Assembly: GCF_003324565.1 (NCBI RefSeq)
Contig: NZ_QOLA01000005.1
Coordinates: 248,001 to 312,000, forward strand
DNA: 64,000 nucleotides
Reading direction: 5' to 3'
Origin: Streptomyces sp. SDr-06
GTDB lineage: Bacteria > Actinomycetota > Actinomycetes > Streptomycetales > Streptomycetaceae
Numbering within the stretch: the first letter of the stretch is position 1; each line of letters opens with the position of its first letter. Shown piece after piece: positions 2,370 through 46,412 of the stretch. The position numbers were made by a program, and so were the translations under genes. The notes beneath the pieces are model-generated. The model was not told the origin of the DNA. It did not search any database and saw only the letters and a list, made by a program, of their open reading frames with translations.

Positions 2370-4028
2370 TCAGTCGCCGGCGGAGGAGCCGGGCTGCCAG
2401 CCCTGGAGGACCGTGTCGAACTGCTGGCGGATGGTCGCCCAGTCCTCGTCGGGGCCCGACATGTAGAGGGCGTACTCGGGCTTGCCGCCGTCGCCGTAAT
2501 ACATCTGGTCGATGGCGTGCCGCTTGCCGGGGAAGTCCTGCTTCTCCACGTAGGTGAACTCCCAGAGCGAGGACTTCACCTGGTCCCGGAAGTTGTTGCC
2601 GTGCAGGGTGACCCGCTTGTACTGGGGCAGCCGGTCCTTGAGCGACTTCTCCATGTTGAGCATGTGCATGTACGGGTTCTCGAAGTCCGGCGACTTCGTG
2701 ACGCTGATCCGGATGCGGTGCTTGCCGTTGTCCGGGGTGTAGTCGATCTCGGAGCCGTCCAGCTGGCGCTTCCAGCCCTTGGGTACGAGCAGGCTGAAGC
2801 CGGCCTGGTCCTTGACGCGCTGCCAGCCGTCCGGCACCGACGGGTCGCCGCCCGGCTTCTTGCCGGCCTCCGGGGTGGTGGACACGGCGGGGCTCTGCGG
2901 GGCGCCGCCGCCGGACGAACCTCCGCGGCCCTCCTGGTACTTCATCGCCGCGAACCCGGCGCCCACGCCCACGACCGCGGCCAGCGCCACCACGAGGGCG
3001 ACGGTCCGCCAGCGCCGCCTGCCCGGGGCCGGGCGGGCGGCGGGCAGCGGCGGGGGCGGCGCCACCGGGGCCGGGCGCTGGACCTGCCGCACCTCGGTGG
3101 GTCCGGTCTGCGCGGCGGCGGCCGAGCGCAGCTCCTGCTCGGACAGCTGGGTGGTCGGCACATAGGCCTGGGCGGCCTTGGACGAGCGCCCCTCCATCGC
3201 GTCGAGGAACATCCGCTCGGCCTCCTCGACCGAGGGCCGCTCCCCCGGGTCCTTGCGGAGCAGCGCCACGATCACGGGGGCCAGCGCTCCGGCCCGGTCG
3301 GGCGCCGGGGGCTCCTCCGCCACGACGGCCTGCATGGTGGAGATCGGCGAGTCCCGGCGGAACGGCGACTCGCCCTGCACGGCGGCGTACAGGGTCGCGC
3401 CCAGGGACCACAGGTCGGAGGCGGGGCCGGGGTGGGCGCCCTGGACCCGCTCGGGCGCCAGGTAGTCGATGGAGCCGACGAGTTCGCCGGTCTTGGTGAT
3501 GGTGACGTCGCCCTCGATGGCGGCGATCCCGAAGTCGGTCAGCAGCACCCGCCCGTCGCTGGCGAGCAGCACGTTGCCGGGCTTCACGTCCCGGTGCAGC
3601 ACCCCGGCCGCGTGCGCGGCCCGCAGCGCGCCCAGCACGTGCAGCCCGATGCGGGCGGCCTCGCGGGCCTCGATGCGGCGCCCGTCGGCGTCCTTGACGG
3701 CGTCGGCGAGCGAGGGCCCGTCGACGTACTGCATGACGATCCAGGGCCGGTTGTCGTGGTCGAGCACGTCGTGGACGGTGACCACGCCGGGGTGGGTGAT
3801 GCGGGCGGCGGCGCGCGCCTCCTTCTGGGTGCGCGCGTGCAGCACCGCCCGGTCGGCCTCGGCCACGTAGAGGGCGGCGGTGAGTTCCTTGACGGCGACG
3901 GTGCGGTGCAGGACCTCGTCATGGGCGCGCCAGACCTTGCCCATGCCGCCGCGGCCTATCGCGTCGCCGAGCCGATAGCGCCCGGCGAGCAACAGCCCCG
4001 CGCCGCTCGTGCTGTGAGTGTTTTCCAC
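2370..4028 (-). CDS. Membrane serine/threonine protein kinase with external domain
   Basis: Receptor kinase of 552 residues starting at GTG 4028. The kinase domain covers about 15-275 with GRGGMG (25-30), lysine 47 in VAVKEL, HRDVKP (145-150) and DFG (165-167). A Pro/Ala-rich juxtamembrane stretch precedes the membrane helix (about 342-362). After a Gly/Ser/Pro linker comes an outside domain (about 400-552) beginning GWQRVKDQAGF. The pattern of an aromatic-rich strand followed by WEFTY is shared with the kinases at 660-2273 and 7153-9834 (WEFTW, WEFTF). All motifs needed for catalysis are present. It lies about 96 bp upstream of the next kinase on the same strand, so co-transcription is possible but not shown. 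Confidence 0.95.
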   Translation of the reverse strand: MENTHSTSGAGLLLAGRYRLGDAIGRGGMGKVWRAHDEVLHRTVAVKELTAALYVAEADRAVLHARTQKEARAAARITHPGVVTVHDVLDHDNRPWIVMQYVDGPSLADAVKDADGRRIEAREAARIGLHVLGALRAAHAAGVLHRDVKPGNVLLASDGRVLLTDFGIAAIEGDVTITKTGELVGSIDYLAPERVQGAHPGPASDLWSLGATLYAAVQGESPFRRDSPISTMQAVVAEEPPAPDRAGALAPVIVALLRKDPGERPSVEEAERMFLDAMEGRSSKAAQAYVPTTQLSEQELRSAAAAQTGPTEVRQVQRPAPVAPPPPLPAARPAPGRRRWRTVALVVALAAVVGVGAGFAAMKYQEGRGGSSGGGAPQSPAVSTTPEAGKKPGGDPSVPDGWQRVKDQAGFSLLVPKGWKRQLDGSEIDYTPDNGKHRIRISVTKSPDFENPYMHMLNMEKSLKDRLPQYKRVTLHGNNFRDQVKSSLWEFTYVEKQDFPGKRHAIDQMYYGDGGKPEYALYMSGPDEDWATIRQQFDTVLQGWQPGSSAGD

Positions 4029-37699: not shown

Positions 37700-38605
37700 T
37701 CACACGTAGTCCTCTAGGCGGGCCACGGCGTACCCCTTGTCGGTGATCACCTTCATCACCTGGCGGACCATGTCGGGCATGGTGCCGTTCCAGTCCTCGC
37801 GGCCGCGGAAGTGGGTGAGGATGATGTCGCCGGGGTGCAGGTCGCGGTCCCACTCGCGCCATTCCATGTGGTCAGTGAAGGCCTCCTCCGCCCACAGCGG
37901 GGCGGCCTTGATGCCGCAGGACTGGGCGGCCTTGAGGGTGTCCTCGTTGTAGTTGCCGTACGGCGGCCGGAACAGCCGGGGCCGGGCGCCCGCCCACTGC
38001 CCGATCTTGTCCTGCTGGTCGCAGATCTCGTGCCGCTGCTCGTCGTAGGAGAGCGCGGGCATGTAGCGGTGGTTGAGGGTGTGGTTGTTGAGCGTGACCC
38101 CGAGGCCCTGCATCTTCTTGAAGTACTCGTGGTCGTTCTTGACCAGGTAGTCGCTGAGGAACGCGCTGTAGGGGATGCGCAGTTCCTGCATCATCTTCAG
38201 GAAGGTGGGGTCCTTCTCGGCGCCGTCGTCGATCGTCAGGAAGACGATGCGGTCCTTGGTGGGGACGGTGGTGAAGACGGGCGGCAGCGAGTCTCCCCCC
38301 TCCGTCTCGAACCCGGGGCGGTTGGTGATCCGCGGCTTGACCGCGGGCGGGGCGGGCGCGAGCAGCGGGGGCTTGGCGAGTCCCCACTTCTTGACGGCCG
38401 CGAGCCGGGCGGCCTCGGCGCGCTTGAGCTGCTCGGAGTAGCCGGTGAGGGCTCCGGCGGGGCCCTGCTGGGCGGCCTGGGCGCCGGGTCTGCCGGACCC
38501 GCCGTCCTCGGAGGAGCAGCCGGAGACGAGCAGGGCGGCGCCGAGCCCGAGGGCGACACAGGCGACCTTCGTCCGGGATTTACCCTTTTGTCGTACTAGT
38601 TGCAT
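37700..38605 (-). CDS. Lipoprotein polysaccharide deacetylase
   Basis: 301 residues with lipobox VSGC (Cys 30), then a linker with KKWGLAKP and a NodB domain (about 118-301). All motifs are intact: TIDDG (Asp 126/127), NHTLNH, RPPYG and the late DIILTHF. It should remove N- or O-acetyl groups from an envelope polysaccharide or peptidoglycan on the outer face of the membrane. The C-terminus reads VARLEDYV. The start is ATG 38605; the frame remains open upstream but antisense to another gene. It is probably co-transcribed with the deacetylase at 36847-37680. Confidence 0.93.
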   Translation of the reverse strand: MQLVRQKGKSRTKVACVALGLGAALLVSGCSSEDGGSGRPGAQAAQQGPAGALTGYSEQLKRAEAARLAAVKKWGLAKPPLLAPAPPAVKPRITNRPGFETEGGDSLPPVFTTVPTKDRIVFLTIDDGAEKDPTFLKMMQELRIPYSAFLSDYLVKNDHEYFKKMQGLGVTLNNHTLNHRYMPALSYDEQRHEICDQQDKIGQWAGARPRLFRPPYGNYNEDTLKAAQSCGIKAAPLWAEEAFTDHMEWREWDRDLHPGDIILTHFRGREDWNGTMPDMVRQVMKVITDKGYAVARLEDYV

Positions 38606-38717
38606 GGCGCCGCATCCTGTCAGGCCCGCGCCCCGCCGCCCGGCCGACACCGCGGCCGCCGGCGCACCATCGCCCGGCTGGCCCACAGCGCGGCGGCGGC
38701 TGGACGACAATGACGGG

Positions 38718-39896
38718 GTGAACGACCTCGACACCTTCTCCCTGCTGCTCACCGACGAGGGCCGCGCCCTGCTCGCCTCCCTGCGGGAGTACGACCCCGC
38801 CCAGGAGCTGTCGGTCGCCACCCGGCTGCGCCGCGACCACGAGGCGGGCCTGGTGTCGGCGGCGCTCGGGCAGGCGCGGCTGCGGCAGCGGGCGGTGGCG
38901 AAGTTCGGCGCGGCCGACGCGCACCGGATGTTCTTCACGCCCAACGGCGTCGAGCAGTCCACCCGCACCTCGGTCGCCACCCACCGCGCGAAGACCTTCG
39001 CCGCACACGGCGTACGCGGCGTGGCCGACCTGTGCTGCGGCATCGGCGGCGACGCGCTGGCGCTCGCCCGGGCCGGGATCTCCGTCCTCGCCGTCGACCG
39101 CGACCCGCTGACGGCGGCGGTCGCCCGCGCCAACGCGGAGGCGCTCGGCCTCGCGGACCTGATCGAGGTGCGCTGCGCCGACGTCACCGACATCGACACG
39201 GCCGGGTACGACGCGGTCTTCGTGGACCCCGCCCGGCGCGGCGGCCGGGGCCGGATCTTCGACCCCGAGGCGTACTCGCCCCCGCTCTCCTGGGCGACCT
39301 CGGCGGCGCTCGCCGCGCCCTTCGCCGCGCTGAAGATCGCCCCCGGCATCCCGCACGAGGCGATCCCGCCGCAGGCCGAGGCGGAGTGGATCTCCGACGG
39401 GGGCGACGTCAAGGAGGCCGTGCTCTGGTTCGGCACCGGCGTGACCCCGGGCGCCTTCCGCGCCACCGTGCTGCCCGCGGCCGCCGCGCTGTGGGCCGCG
39501 GCCCCGCTCCCCGCGCCGCCGGTCGGGCCGGTCGGCCGCTACCTGCACGAGCCGGACGGCGCGGTCATCCGGGCCCACCTCGTCGCCGAGATCGCCGAGC
39601 GGTGCGGCGGTCGTCTGATCGACGAGACGATCGCGTACGTGACGAGCGACGAGCCGTATGTGTCCCCGTACACCTCGGCGTACGAGATCACCGACCAACT
39701 CCCGTTCAACATGAAGAAGTTGAAGGCGTTGCTGCGGGAGCGGGGGGTGGGGGTGCTGACGGTGAAGAAGCGCGGGTCCGCCGTGGAGCCGGAGGAGGTG
39801 CGCCGCAAGGTGAAGCCGCGGGGGCCGCACTCGGCGACGGTCTTCCTCACCAGAGTGGCCGGCGCCCCCACCATGCTCATCGGCCACCCCGCGTAA
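38718..39896 (+). CDS. SAM-dependent methyltransferase with THUMP-like C-terminal domain
   Basis: 392 residues. A helical lead (about 1-90, ATRLRRDHEAGLVSAALGQA) is followed by a class I methyltransferase fold with motif I ADLCCGIGGDALALA (near 104) and VFVDPARRGGRGR, which resembles the DPPR-type catalytic motif of nucleic-acid methyltransferases. The C-terminal part (KKLKALLRERGVGVLTVKKRG) fits a THUMP-like RNA-binding domain. The target is probably RNA, but which one is unknown. The start is GTG 38718. The promoter region is shared with the divergent deacetylase. Confidence 0.88.
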   Translation: MNDLDTFSLLLTDEGRALLASLREYDPAQELSVATRLRRDHEAGLVSAALGQARLRQRAVAKFGAADAHRMFFTPNGVEQSTRTSVATHRAKTFAAHGVRGVADLCCGIGGDALALARAGISVLAVDRDPLTAAVARANAEALGLADLIEVRCADVTDIDTAGYDAVFVDPARRGGRGRIFDPEAYSPPLSWATSAALAAPFAALKIAPGIPHEAIPPQAEAEWISDGGDVKEAVLWFGTGVTPGAFRATVLPAAAALWAAAPLPAPPVGPVGRYLHEPDGAVIRAHLVAEIAERCGGRLIDETIAYVTSDEPYVSPYTSAYEITDQLPFNMKKLKALLRERGVGVLTVKKRGSAVEPEEVRRKVKPRGPHSATVFLTRVAGAPTMLIGHPA

Positions 39897-43096: not shown

Positions 43097-45307
43097 TCAG
43101 GGGCTCGTGAGGATCACGAGCCGCTGGGTCGCCCGGGTCATCGCGACATAGCGGTCGACCGCCCCCTCCACGCCGTCGCCGAAGCCGTCCGGGTCGACGA
43201 GGACGACCAGATCGAACTCCAGCCCCTTCGACAGCTCCGGGGTCAGCCACCGCACGCGGGCGGTGTCCCGGAACCGGCTCGCCCCCAGCTCGCCGGTGCC
43301 GATGACGCAGGCGATCCCGTCCGTGTGCCCGGCGAGCCAGTCCTCCAGGACCGCGTCGAGCTCCGCGACGGACCCGTGGCCCACCGGGACGCCGCTGCCG
43401 CGGATCGAGGTCGGCACGTTGGCGTCCGGCAGCACGGCCCGGATCACCGGCTCGGCGTGCGTCATCACCTCTTGCGGCGTGCGGTAGTTGATGCTCAGGG
43501 AGGCCACGTCGCAGCGGTCGAGGCCGATCCGCTCAAGGCGTTCGCGCCACGACTCGGTGAAGCCGTGCCGGGCCTGGGCGCGGTCCCCGACGATGGTGAA
43601 GCTCTTCGACGGGCAGCGCAGCAGCAGCATCTGCCACTCCGCGTCCGTCAGCTCCTGGGCCTCGTCCACGACGACGTGCGCGAACGGGCCGGCGAGCAGG
43701 TCCGGTTCGGCGGTGGGCAGGGCGCTCTCGTCGATCAGGGTGTCCTGGAGGTCCTTGCCGCGCAGCATCCGCACGGCGCCTTCGGAGTCGTCTCCGGCCG
43801 AGTCGAAGTTCGCGGCCGTGACGATCTCGTCGATGACGCCGGCCATGCGGGCCCGCTCGGCGGCGACCACCGCGTCGTGCCGCCGCCTGCGCCGCTCCGT
43901 CCCCGGGTCGCCGAGCCGCTGCCGGGCGGCGTCCAGGAGCGGCAGGTCGGACACGGTCCAGGCCTGCGCGTCCGCGCGTTGCAGTCGGCGTACGTCGTCG
44001 GGGCCGAGCCAGGGCGCGCACAGCCGGAGATAGGCGGGCACCGACCACAGGTCGCCGACGAGGTCGGTCGCTTCGAGCAGCGGCCACGCGCCGTTGACGG
44101 TGTCGACCAGTTCCCGGTCCTGGAGCAGCACCCCGCGGAACTCCTCGGGCGTCACCTCGTCGCCGTCGTGCCGGTCGAGCAGGATCGTGACCAGCGCATC
44201 CCAGACCTGCTCACGCCCCTCGTTGTGTGGGGTGCCGGGCCCGGGCGCCGCGAACGCCTCGGCCCAGTCGTCGGCGCCGAGCCGGAGGTCGGACCAGGGG
44301 GTGGTGACGGTCATGGGGTCGGTGGGCGGCTCCTCGTAGAACCGGACGGCCCTCTCGACGGCCTTCACCATCTCCGCGGACGCCTTCAGCCGGGCCACCT
44401 CGGGGTCGCTCTCGTCCCCGGCCGAGGCCCCCTCGGCGACGAGGTCCCGCAGCACGCAGGTCCGCACGCCCTCCTCGCCGAGGCTGGGCAGGACGTCGGC
44501 CACGTAGTCGAGGTAGGGCCGGTGCGGGCCGACGAAGAGGACGCCGCCGCGGCGGTGGCCGAGGCGCGGGTCGGAGTAGAGCAGGTAGGCGGAGCGGTGC
44601 AGGGCGACGACGGTCTTGCCGGTGCCGGGGCCGCCGTCCACGACGAGGGCGCCGCGCGAGCCCGCCCGGATGATGGCGTCCTGGTCGGCCTGGATGGTGG
44701 AGAGGACGTCGCGCATCCGGGCCGAGCGGTTGGTGCCCAGGCTCGCGATGAAGGCGGACTGGTCGTCGAGCGCGGCATGGCCTTCGAGCCCGTCGGCGCT
44801 GAACACCTCGTCCCAGTAGTCGCTGATCCGGCCGCCGGTCCAGCGGTACCTGCGGCGGCTCGCGAGGCCCATCGGCTCGGCGTGGGTCGCCGCGAAGAAC
44901 GGCTCGGCCGCGGGGGAACGCCAGTCGAGCAGCAGCCGCCGGCCCTCGCTGTCGGTGAGGCCGAGGCGTCCGACGTACAGCGGCTCGGCGTCGTCCGCGC
45001 CCACGATGCGGCCGAGGCACAGGTCGAGGCCGAAGCGGCGCAGGGTGCGCAGACGGCTGGTGGTGTGATGGACCTCGATGTCCCGGTCCATCGCCGCCCG
45101 GCCGATGCCGCCGGGTGACCGGCGCAGTTCGTCGAGCCGGGCGGACAGCTCGGTGATCGTCTGGTCGAGGCTCCGCGCGACGGCGGCGAAGTGCCGCTCG
45201 TCCTCCGCGATGAGCGCCGGGTCGGCCTTGGGGGAAAGACGGTCGGGCAGGTCGAAGGCGCTGGTGGTGGCACCGCGGAATTCAGAATCCGACAACTGAG
45301 CACGCAC
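43097..45307 (-). CDS. helR: HelR: HelD-like RNA polymerase-associated helicase (rifamycin protection)
   Basis: 736-residue UvrD/HelD-type superfamily I protein. Walker A is GGPGTGKT (near 226), Walker B VVVDEAQE (near 547), then SINYRTPQEVM and a C-terminal YVAMTRATQRLVIL. A long N-terminal coiled segment contains conserved HFAAVARSLDQ. HelD proteins insert arms into RNA polymerase and release it from stalled complexes. The HelR subgroup also displaces rifamycins. This identity is supported by a perfect rifamycin-associated element 61-80 bases upstream. I choose the GTG at 45307, with GGGAG 9 bases before it; the more distant ATG (45415) would put the element inside the gene. The expression trigger would be rifamycin exposure. 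Confidence 0.9.
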   Translation of the reverse strand: MRAQLSDSEFRGATTSAFDLPDRLSPKADPALIAEDERHFAAVARSLDQTITELSARLDELRRSPGGIGRAAMDRDIEVHHTTSRLRTLRRFGLDLCLGRIVGADDAEPLYVGRLGLTDSEGRRLLLDWRSPAAEPFFAATHAEPMGLASRRRYRWTGGRISDYWDEVFSADGLEGHAALDDQSAFIASLGTNRSARMRDVLSTIQADQDAIIRAGSRGALVVDGGPGTGKTVVALHRSAYLLYSDPRLGHRRGGVLFVGPHRPYLDYVADVLPSLGEEGVRTCVLRDLVAEGASAGDESDPEVARLKASAEMVKAVERAVRFYEEPPTDPMTVTTPWSDLRLGADDWAEAFAAPGPGTPHNEGREQVWDALVTILLDRHDGDEVTPEEFRGVLLQDRELVDTVNGAWPLLEATDLVGDLWSVPAYLRLCAPWLGPDDVRRLQRADAQAWTVSDLPLLDAARQRLGDPGTERRRRRHDAVVAAERARMAGVIDEIVTAANFDSAGDDSEGAVRMLRGKDLQDTLIDESALPTAEPDLLAGPFAHVVVDEAQELTDAEWQMLLLRCPSKSFTIVGDRAQARHGFTESWRERLERIGLDRCDVASLSINYRTPQEVMTHAEPVIRAVLPDANVPTSIRGSGVPVGHGSVAELDAVLEDWLAGHTDGIACVIGTGELGASRFRDTARVRWLTPELSKGLEFDLVVLVDPDGFGDGVEGAVDRYVAMTRATQRLVILTSP

Positions 45308-45367
45308 TTCGTGAATCTCCCATTTCCGCAGGTACTGGCCTGAGGCGAGCGATTCTGCGGCACTAGG

Positions 45368-45387
45368 GGGGCCTTGCCGCAAGCCCC
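45368..45387 (-). promoter_or_regulatory. Rifamycin-associated element (RAE)
   Basis: The minus strand reads GGGGCTTGCGGCAAGGCCCC, which as I recall it equals the RAE consensus found before rifamycin-inactivation and helR genes. Two extra bases on each side extend it to GGGGGG...CCCCCC. It is oriented towards helR. Confidence 0.9.
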
Positions 45388-45410
45388 CCGGTGCGCTATA
45401 TCTTGAGAGT

Positions 45411-45446
45411 GGCAAGGAGAGGATTTACTCCTTGCCCTCTTTTTTT
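45411..45446 (+). terminator. Intrinsic-terminator-like hairpin with T run, antisense side of helR promoter
   Basis: Perfect arms GGCAAGGAG (45411-45419) and CTCCTTGCC (45428-45436), followed by CTCTTTTTTT. The T run makes it a classical Rho-independent terminator for plus-strand transcription. No plus-strand gene ends here, while helR transcription must start close by on the other strand. Confidence 0.65.
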
Positions 45447-45554: not shown

Positions 45555-46412
45555 CTAGACGTAGTCCTCCAGGCGGGCCACGGTGAAACCCTGCTCCTGG
45601 ATGTGGCGCAGCATGTTCGCGGTCATCTCCGTCATGGAGGCGCCCTTGAGCTCCTTGGGGCCGCGGAAGTGCGCCAGGATGATGTCGCCCGGGTGCAGCT
45701 TCTTGTCACCGCGCTGGTACTGCATGTTCGTGATCTGCATCGACTCGCGCCACAGCACGATCGCCTGGAGGTCGCAGGACTTGGCGGCCGTCCGCGTGTT
45801 CTCGTTCCAGTTGCCGTACGGCGGCCGGAAGAGCCGGGGCGTCTTTCCGTACTCCTTGCCCAGCTTCTGTTCCTGGGTGCATATCTCGTTCTTCTGCGCG
45901 GCCTCGCCCAGGGTGCGCATGTTGGGGTGCGAGAGCGTGTGGTTCTCGATCGAGTTGCCGAGTTCCTGCAGCGGTTTGAAGTAGCCGTAGTCGTTGCGGA
46001 TGATGTCGTCGGTCAGGAACATCGTGAAGGGGATCTTCAGGTCCTTCATCATCTCGACGAACTTGGGGTCCTTCTCGGCCCCGTCGTCGAACGTCACGAA
46101 GACGATCTTCTCCTTGGTGGGGATGTCGCTCACCACCGGCACCTCGCCCGGCTTCGCCTTCACCGGCTTCTCGGCCGGTGGGGCGGGCGGCGCCGCGAAG
46201 GGCTTGAGCCCCCACTTGCGGTACGCGGCCTCGGCCCCGGCGGTGTCGGTGCCCGGCGACGCCGACGAGGACGTGCCGCTGTCCTTGCCGGACGGGGTGG
46301 CCGCGGACGGTGTGCTGCCCGAGCCACCGCCCGACGAACAGCCCGCGACCATCAGAAGTCCGAAGACGGCCGCACCGACCGCCTTCTTGCGCACGAGCCA
46401 GCCCATGTTCAA
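45555..46412 (-). CDS. Lipoprotein polysaccharide deacetylase
   Basis: 285 residues with lipobox VAGC (Cys 25), a Ser/Thr/Gly linker, a YRKWGLKPF motif and a NodB domain (about 100-285). Motifs are intact: TFDDG (Asp 109/110), NHTLSHP, RPPYG and DIILAHF. The C-terminus VARLEDYV equals that of the paralogue at 37700-38605. It should deacetylate an envelope polymer outside the membrane. A third copy in one 10-kb stretch implies local duplication. ATG 46412 is used; a second ATG two codons on is equally possible. Confidence 0.93.
   Translation of the reverse strand: MNMGWLVRKKAVGAAVFGLLMVAGCSSGGGSGSTPSAATPSGKDSGTSSSASPGTDTAGAEAAYRKWGLKPFAAPPAPPAEKPVKAKPGEVPVVSDIPTKEKIVFVTFDDGAEKDPKFVEMMKDLKIPFTMFLTDDIIRNDYGYFKPLQELGNSIENHTLSHPNMRTLGEAAQKNEICTQEQKLGKEYGKTPRLFRPPYGNWNENTRTAAKSCDLQAIVLWRESMQITNMQYQRGDKKLHPGDIILAHFRGPKELKGASMTEMTANMLRHIQEQGFTVARLEDYV

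Follow-up and report, generated by a model that had tools for sequence, protein, structure and literature searches.

A probable rifamycin-inducible helR gene in Streptomyces sp. SDr-06, with candidate divergent promoters at its rifamycin-associated element and a leader that points to rgt

How a HelD-like gene of Streptomyces sp. SDr-06 comes to lie behind a rifamycin-associated element (RAE), and what that element does as promoter DNA, are the questions raised by a locus within 64,000 nucleotides of contig NZ_QOLA01000005.1 (positions 248,001 to 312,000, here called the window). The gene, helR, occupies positions 43,097-45,307 of the minus strand of the window. Its RAE (GGGGCTTGCGGCAAGGCCCC, 45,368-45,387, minus strand, dyad axis at 45,378) is a 20-nt match with 0 mismatches, 61-80 nt upstream of the helR GTG at 45,307; an exact 20-base element at this distance from the start of a HelD-like gene had been described in the initial annotation, and all of its coordinates are right. 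Shuffling gives an expectation of 0.07 RAE matches in the window, and the only other window site within three mismatches of the RAE is its own reverse complement. As is characteristic of the RAE regulon, a gene for rifamycin protection is here preceded by the 19-bp palindrome. It is probably a rifamycin-inducible RNA polymerase protection gene with divergent RAE promoters and a leader derived from rgt.

The product of helR, 736 amino acids long, is a class II HelD-type RNA polymerase recycling and protection ATPase. It scores 1255 bits against the NCBIfam model NF041254 (motor_HelR), for which the cut-off is 750, and M. smegmatis HelD (entry 6yxu) is its relative in the PDB, with E 3.6e-100 and similarity over nearly the full length. 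Both the SF1-type NTPase motifs (the P-loop GGPGTGKT at residue 225 and DEAQ at residues 548-551) and an acidic tip of the PCh loop are present. The latter, AGDDSEG at residue 504, stands opposite DDED 482-485 of M. smegmatis HelD, whose PCh-loop tip reaches the RNA polymerase active site. That helR might instead be a constitutive housekeeping HelD without rifamycin protection is suggested by the number of HelD-family members, five or more, that the genome encodes, but the idea is scarcely credible for a paralogue that is far over the cut-off of the HelR model and carries an RAE. The four other family members (G000 C76:100514, C4:132292, C44:64103 and C11:267230) are just 29-43% identical to HelR, and none of the RAE sites from the genome scan coincides with any of them.

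The initial annotation had also proposed a search of the genome for other RAE sites next to inactivation enzymes, and this was borne out by two further RAEs, one before rph, for a rifamycin phosphotransferase (NF041857, 1622 bits), and one before rox, for a rifampin monooxygenase (NF033145, 930 bits), both products scoring over cut-off. The rifampicin region of rpoB is wild-type. No arr and no close homologue of rgt, the rifamycin glycosyltransferase gene, were found in this genome; it does have two homologues of arylamine N-acetyltransferase, which are not diagnostic for rifamycin biosynthesis as a reason for carrying helR. Across the genus, the RAE pattern is present in 85 of 101 genomes (84%), with one to three sites each, while the reversed pattern, used as a chance control, gave 5 matches in the same 101 genomes. 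Since RAEs occur in 84% of the genus genomes sampled, no rifamycin cluster is needed to account for an RAE before helR. In every one of the 63 sites read in the strain's own genome and the genus survey, the gene that follows the RAE is helR, rgt, rph or rox. A survey of 198 genomes of the class found RAEs in 67 genomes and 33 genera, with the same four targets plus arr in one family.

According to two reviews (PMC10719064 and PMC8655204), rifampicin-induced, RAE-controlled helR and its protection of RNA polymerase have been demonstrated for S. venezuelae as well as M. abscessus. SVEN_6029 and MAB_3189c of these species are, like the window gene, HelR-type class II HelD genes under an RAE, with a sense -35 overlapping the element. 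The RAE-helR pairing described here is a known arrangement, shared with most relatives of the gene, and as such less surprising than the initial annotation implied. Because the published cases are joined by every testable sequence hallmark at this locus, the reading of helR as a gene for rifamycin-inducible RNA polymerase protection is supported. The manner in which rifamycins are sensed through the RAE in actinomycetes has been stated to be unsolved (PMC12802891), and it is here that the DNA around the element becomes informative.

For that comparison 198 RAE loci were gathered, of which 157 were kept as non-redundant (more than 20% different across 130 nt). In most of them the 19-nt RAE core had been fixed by the search pattern of the genus and class surveys, so that conservation of the core itself is no evidence; among 80 helR relatives the element was sought with up to three mismatches allowed. 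Conservation over the 157 loci spans about -32 to +36 (RAE start = 0), a module of about 68 bp, with CA[GCA]AAT at +30 in 140 loci and TATA at -13 in 139. On the sense side, the hexamer 21-26 nt from the RAE dyad (+9) has the form NANNNT in 99.4% of loci; at the equal dyad distance on the antisense side, 98.7% have it, against a background of about 2% in both cases, and these symmetric -10-like hexamers hold in every gene class. For both -10s, TTGCNG inside the RAE serves as a -35-like hexamer at a 19-nt spacer, and the two -35s overlap at the dyad. In the window, the sense elements on the minus strand are TTGCGG (45,377-45,382) and CAGAAT (45,352-45,357), a geometry that is kept in 99% of loci and that agrees with the published P2 promoter, the -35 of which overlaps the RAE. 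The predicted antisense promoter on the plus strand has TTGCCG (45,374-45,379) and TATCTT (45,399-45,404; consensus of the family TAnGTT), again with a 19-nt spacer and with the -10 at the same dyad distance as its sense counterpart. These patterns make it likely that the RAE is the shared -35 of two divergent promoters, which would be mutually exclusive because their -35 regions overlap.

Two other ways of reading the same bases were set aside. For an antisense -10 of the form TATAnG and a 17-nt spacer, the sixth position is T in 0% of loci, and this reading gave way to TAnGTT with the 19-nt spacer. Control of the MerR type, suggested by the 19-nt spacer, does not fit a dyad that sits in the -35 and not in the spacer.

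The next feature outward would lend the predicted antisense promoter a product. Its predicted +1, which falls 7 bases beyond the -10, is a G at every locus (100%), and in the window this base (45,411) is also the first base of an intrinsic terminator on the plus strand (GGCAAGGAG-AGGATTTA-CTCCTTGCC-CTC-TTTTTTT, 45,411-45,446), with its stem at 45,411-45,436 and N8 between the arms. Of the loci, 70% have an inverted repeat at this place, compared with 6% among shuffled sequences; the hairpin is unclear in about 30%, and the arms pair with their own partner in 57%, compared with 21% for permuted arms from another locus. The inner arm ends most often exactly at the predicted +1 (69 of 110 loci with a clear repeat), and just before the repeat the sense strand has an A-run, which would place a U-run at the end of an antisense RNA. 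The hairpin is not the terminator of the upstream gene, since that gene (45,555-46,412) runs on the minus strand. The outward promoter appears to make a short, self-terminating RNA of about 36 nt.

A plainer reading would take the RAE as just an operator for a rifamycin-responsive transcription factor, with the upstream block as a second sense promoter, P1, the hairpin incidental and no antisense promoter at all. Reviews have proposed a factor bound to the palindrome, the GGGG/CCCC arms of which extend past what a -35 needs, and two sense promoters have been mapped in M. smegmatis, P1 lying upstream of the RAE. Because NANNNT is self-complementary, the outer hexamer could equally be taken for a sense element (CAACnT), and the A(-17)/T(-13) pair could also serve a sense -10. 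Against this, when the outer element is read antisense its first base is T in 100% of loci and its sixth in 99%, and its distance from the dyad is exactly that of the sense -10; no sense -35 fits it, and the invariant G at the predicted +1 begins a terminator that could work in the antisense direction alone. On balance an operator without an outward promoter is rather unlikely, and the divergent arrangement is preferred.

If two promoters do share the RAE, it may be asked whether RNA polymerase alone could be the sensor, with rifamycin arresting it at the antisense promoter and thereby freeing the sense one, in the manner of the alarm that convergent promoters provide for B. subtilis helD. The antisense promoter of B. 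subtilis helD/pps, which likewise lies near a rifampicin-protection gene, has a 19-bp spacer, the same as here (PMC12802891). The B. subtilis promoters, however, are convergent and non-overlapping and have no RAE, whereas those predicted here are divergent with a shared -35 (PMC12802891); a convergent, non-overlapping pair of that type is not found at the window locus. With overlapping -35s, an arrested antisense complex would block helR too. Sense output never rose with drug in 200,000 random parameter sets (largest fold change 1.0), so that competition by RNA polymerase alone is ruled out within a simple mutual-exclusion model, one that ignores supercoiling and dislodging. Sensing by promoter competition is accordingly very improbable, and the overlapping -35s together with the model result favour a factor that acts on the RAE and covers both -35s of the divergent promoters.

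Downstream of the promoters, the sequence that leads into helR has a history of its own. Many relatives have a short open reading frame, MRVLLSxYGxRGDVEP..., between the RAE and helR. It was considered as a conserved regulatory leader peptide and turned out to be the N-terminus of rgt. The leader, Shine-Dalgarno sequence and first codons of window helR (GTGCGTGCTCAGTTGTCG, 45,290-45,342, minus strand) score 34.9 bits against a profile of the rgt leader and start; 15 basal loci without rgt score 0, and none of 870 shuffles reaches 5 bits (maximum 2.8). In the same genome the rph leader gives 30.2 and the rox leader 13.9. The start of rgt lies mostly 77-80 nt from the RAE start, the helR GTG lying at 80. 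Two points weigh on the other side: the Rgt reference is to be understood as Rgt-like, its best model (NF000354) giving 525 bits, below the equivalog cut-off of 800, and only about 6 codons of rgt remain in the window (14 of 18 nt). The profile scores and comparisons nonetheless support a derivation of the window leader, Shine-Dalgarno sequence and start codon from an rgt gene that once stood between the RAE and helR and was then deleted. RAE-rgt and RAE-rgt-helR operons have the same RAE module and leader as the window; they keep rgt, which in the window is gone but for its start codons. The probable origin of the leader, Shine-Dalgarno sequence and start codon in a deleted rgt is also where the window differs from the helR loci of S. 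venezuelae and M. abscessus.

The distribution of rgt among 136 helR loci is in keeping with repeated loss. The gene is intact in 28 (about a fifth), reduced to a stub in 27 and missing from 81, and these states are interspersed on the HelR protein tree, where intact rgt requires 19 changes, at least 9 of them forced by well-supported branches. RAE-helR relatives without the intact gene have internally deleted rgt, stubs of 19-53 codons, C-terminal pieces or nothing. Basal lineages have RAE-helR with no trace of rgt, which implies one or more gains of rgt followed by numerous losses.

Retention of rgt-like leader and start codons as a working leader peptide or 5'UTR element, and not as the residue of an rgt deletion, is improbable but has one attractive case, a Streptomyces clade with an open stub of 47-53 codons that ends at the helR start and suggests translational coupling. 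Elsewhere the stubs carry frameshifts, are fused, or range freely in length between 6 and about 180 codons, and many helR loci have none; the basal lineages never had one, and C-terminal pieces of rgt persist before helR in L134, L221 and L229. L010, L016, L028, L030, L147 and their relatives have a 47-codon stub with what seems to be a single shared deletion junction (CAPxxFAGATSDRS); it is open, ends at the helR start and again suggests translational coupling.

Deletion of rgt also bears on the start codon of helR, which the initial annotation had held to be settled by the RAE. Comparison supports the GTG at 45,307, preceded by a Shine-Dalgarno-like GGGAG at 45,317-45,321 (minus strand), but the RAE settles it only indirectly, because the GTG is inherited from rgt. 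In the sister sequence, S. violascens L072, a stub, VRVLFGTDG, precedes a retained MDHLTTSAFDL. This inner start has been lost in the window, which leaves HelR two places to begin, the GTG that once opened rgt and a TTG four codons on; this in-frame TTG, at 45,295, is a conceivable alternative start.

Extended to the Actinomycetes as a whole, the proposal has two parts. The RAE would be the symmetric core of a bidirectional promoter, in which two divergent promoters share palindromic -35s and the outward one makes a short self-terminating RNA; and rgt would be the source of the RAE promoters of helR, rph and rox in much of the class, these genes often still starting at the rgt start codon. From the sequence comparisons this broader claim is held to be somewhat better than even. 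No description of the symmetric -10s or of the rgt fossils was found in the reviews and literature searches to which this comparison was confined.

The events at the locus might then run as follows. Exposure to rifamycin would raise transcription of helR from the promoter with its -35 in the RAE, and the HelR produced would enter RNA polymerase, where its PCh loop would disturb the rifamycin pocket and lead to the release of drug and nucleic acid. The outward RAE promoter would yield an RNA of about 36 nt that ends at once at its own hairpin, and the switch would be set by a drug-responsive or RNA polymerase-responsive factor on the RAE, covering both -35s. RAE-controlled helR, rph and rox would together form a three-gene rifamycin regulon that protects a drug-sensitive RNA polymerase. 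The module of about 68 bp, with its two -10s, shared -35 and terminator, singles out individual bases as targets for mutation and predicts one particular short RNA. The rgt fossils, for their part, account for the resemblance among the helR, rph and rox leaders and indicate a shared promoter ancestry of these resistance genes.

The survey also yields RAE-linked genes outside the known five. At L197, from outside Streptomyces, an RAE module near 4,001-4,019 precedes a DrrA-like ABC transporter ATPase (2,882-3,805, minus strand; TIGR01188, 338 bits, over cut-off), a gene type outside the known RAE targets; the transporter is possibly a rifamycin exporter. At L190 the RAE (at about 4,000) stands before a HelD paralogue just 37% identical to the window HelR, and in L223, L226 and L230 it precedes a second Rgt-like glycosyltransferase, 54-56% identical, with a different and longer leader of about 150 nt. 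In the window itself, the helR region is flanked by two related polysaccharide-deacetylase-like genes on the minus strand (37,700-39,466 and the upstream gene at 45,555-46,412) that have the motif HPGDIILxHFRG in common.
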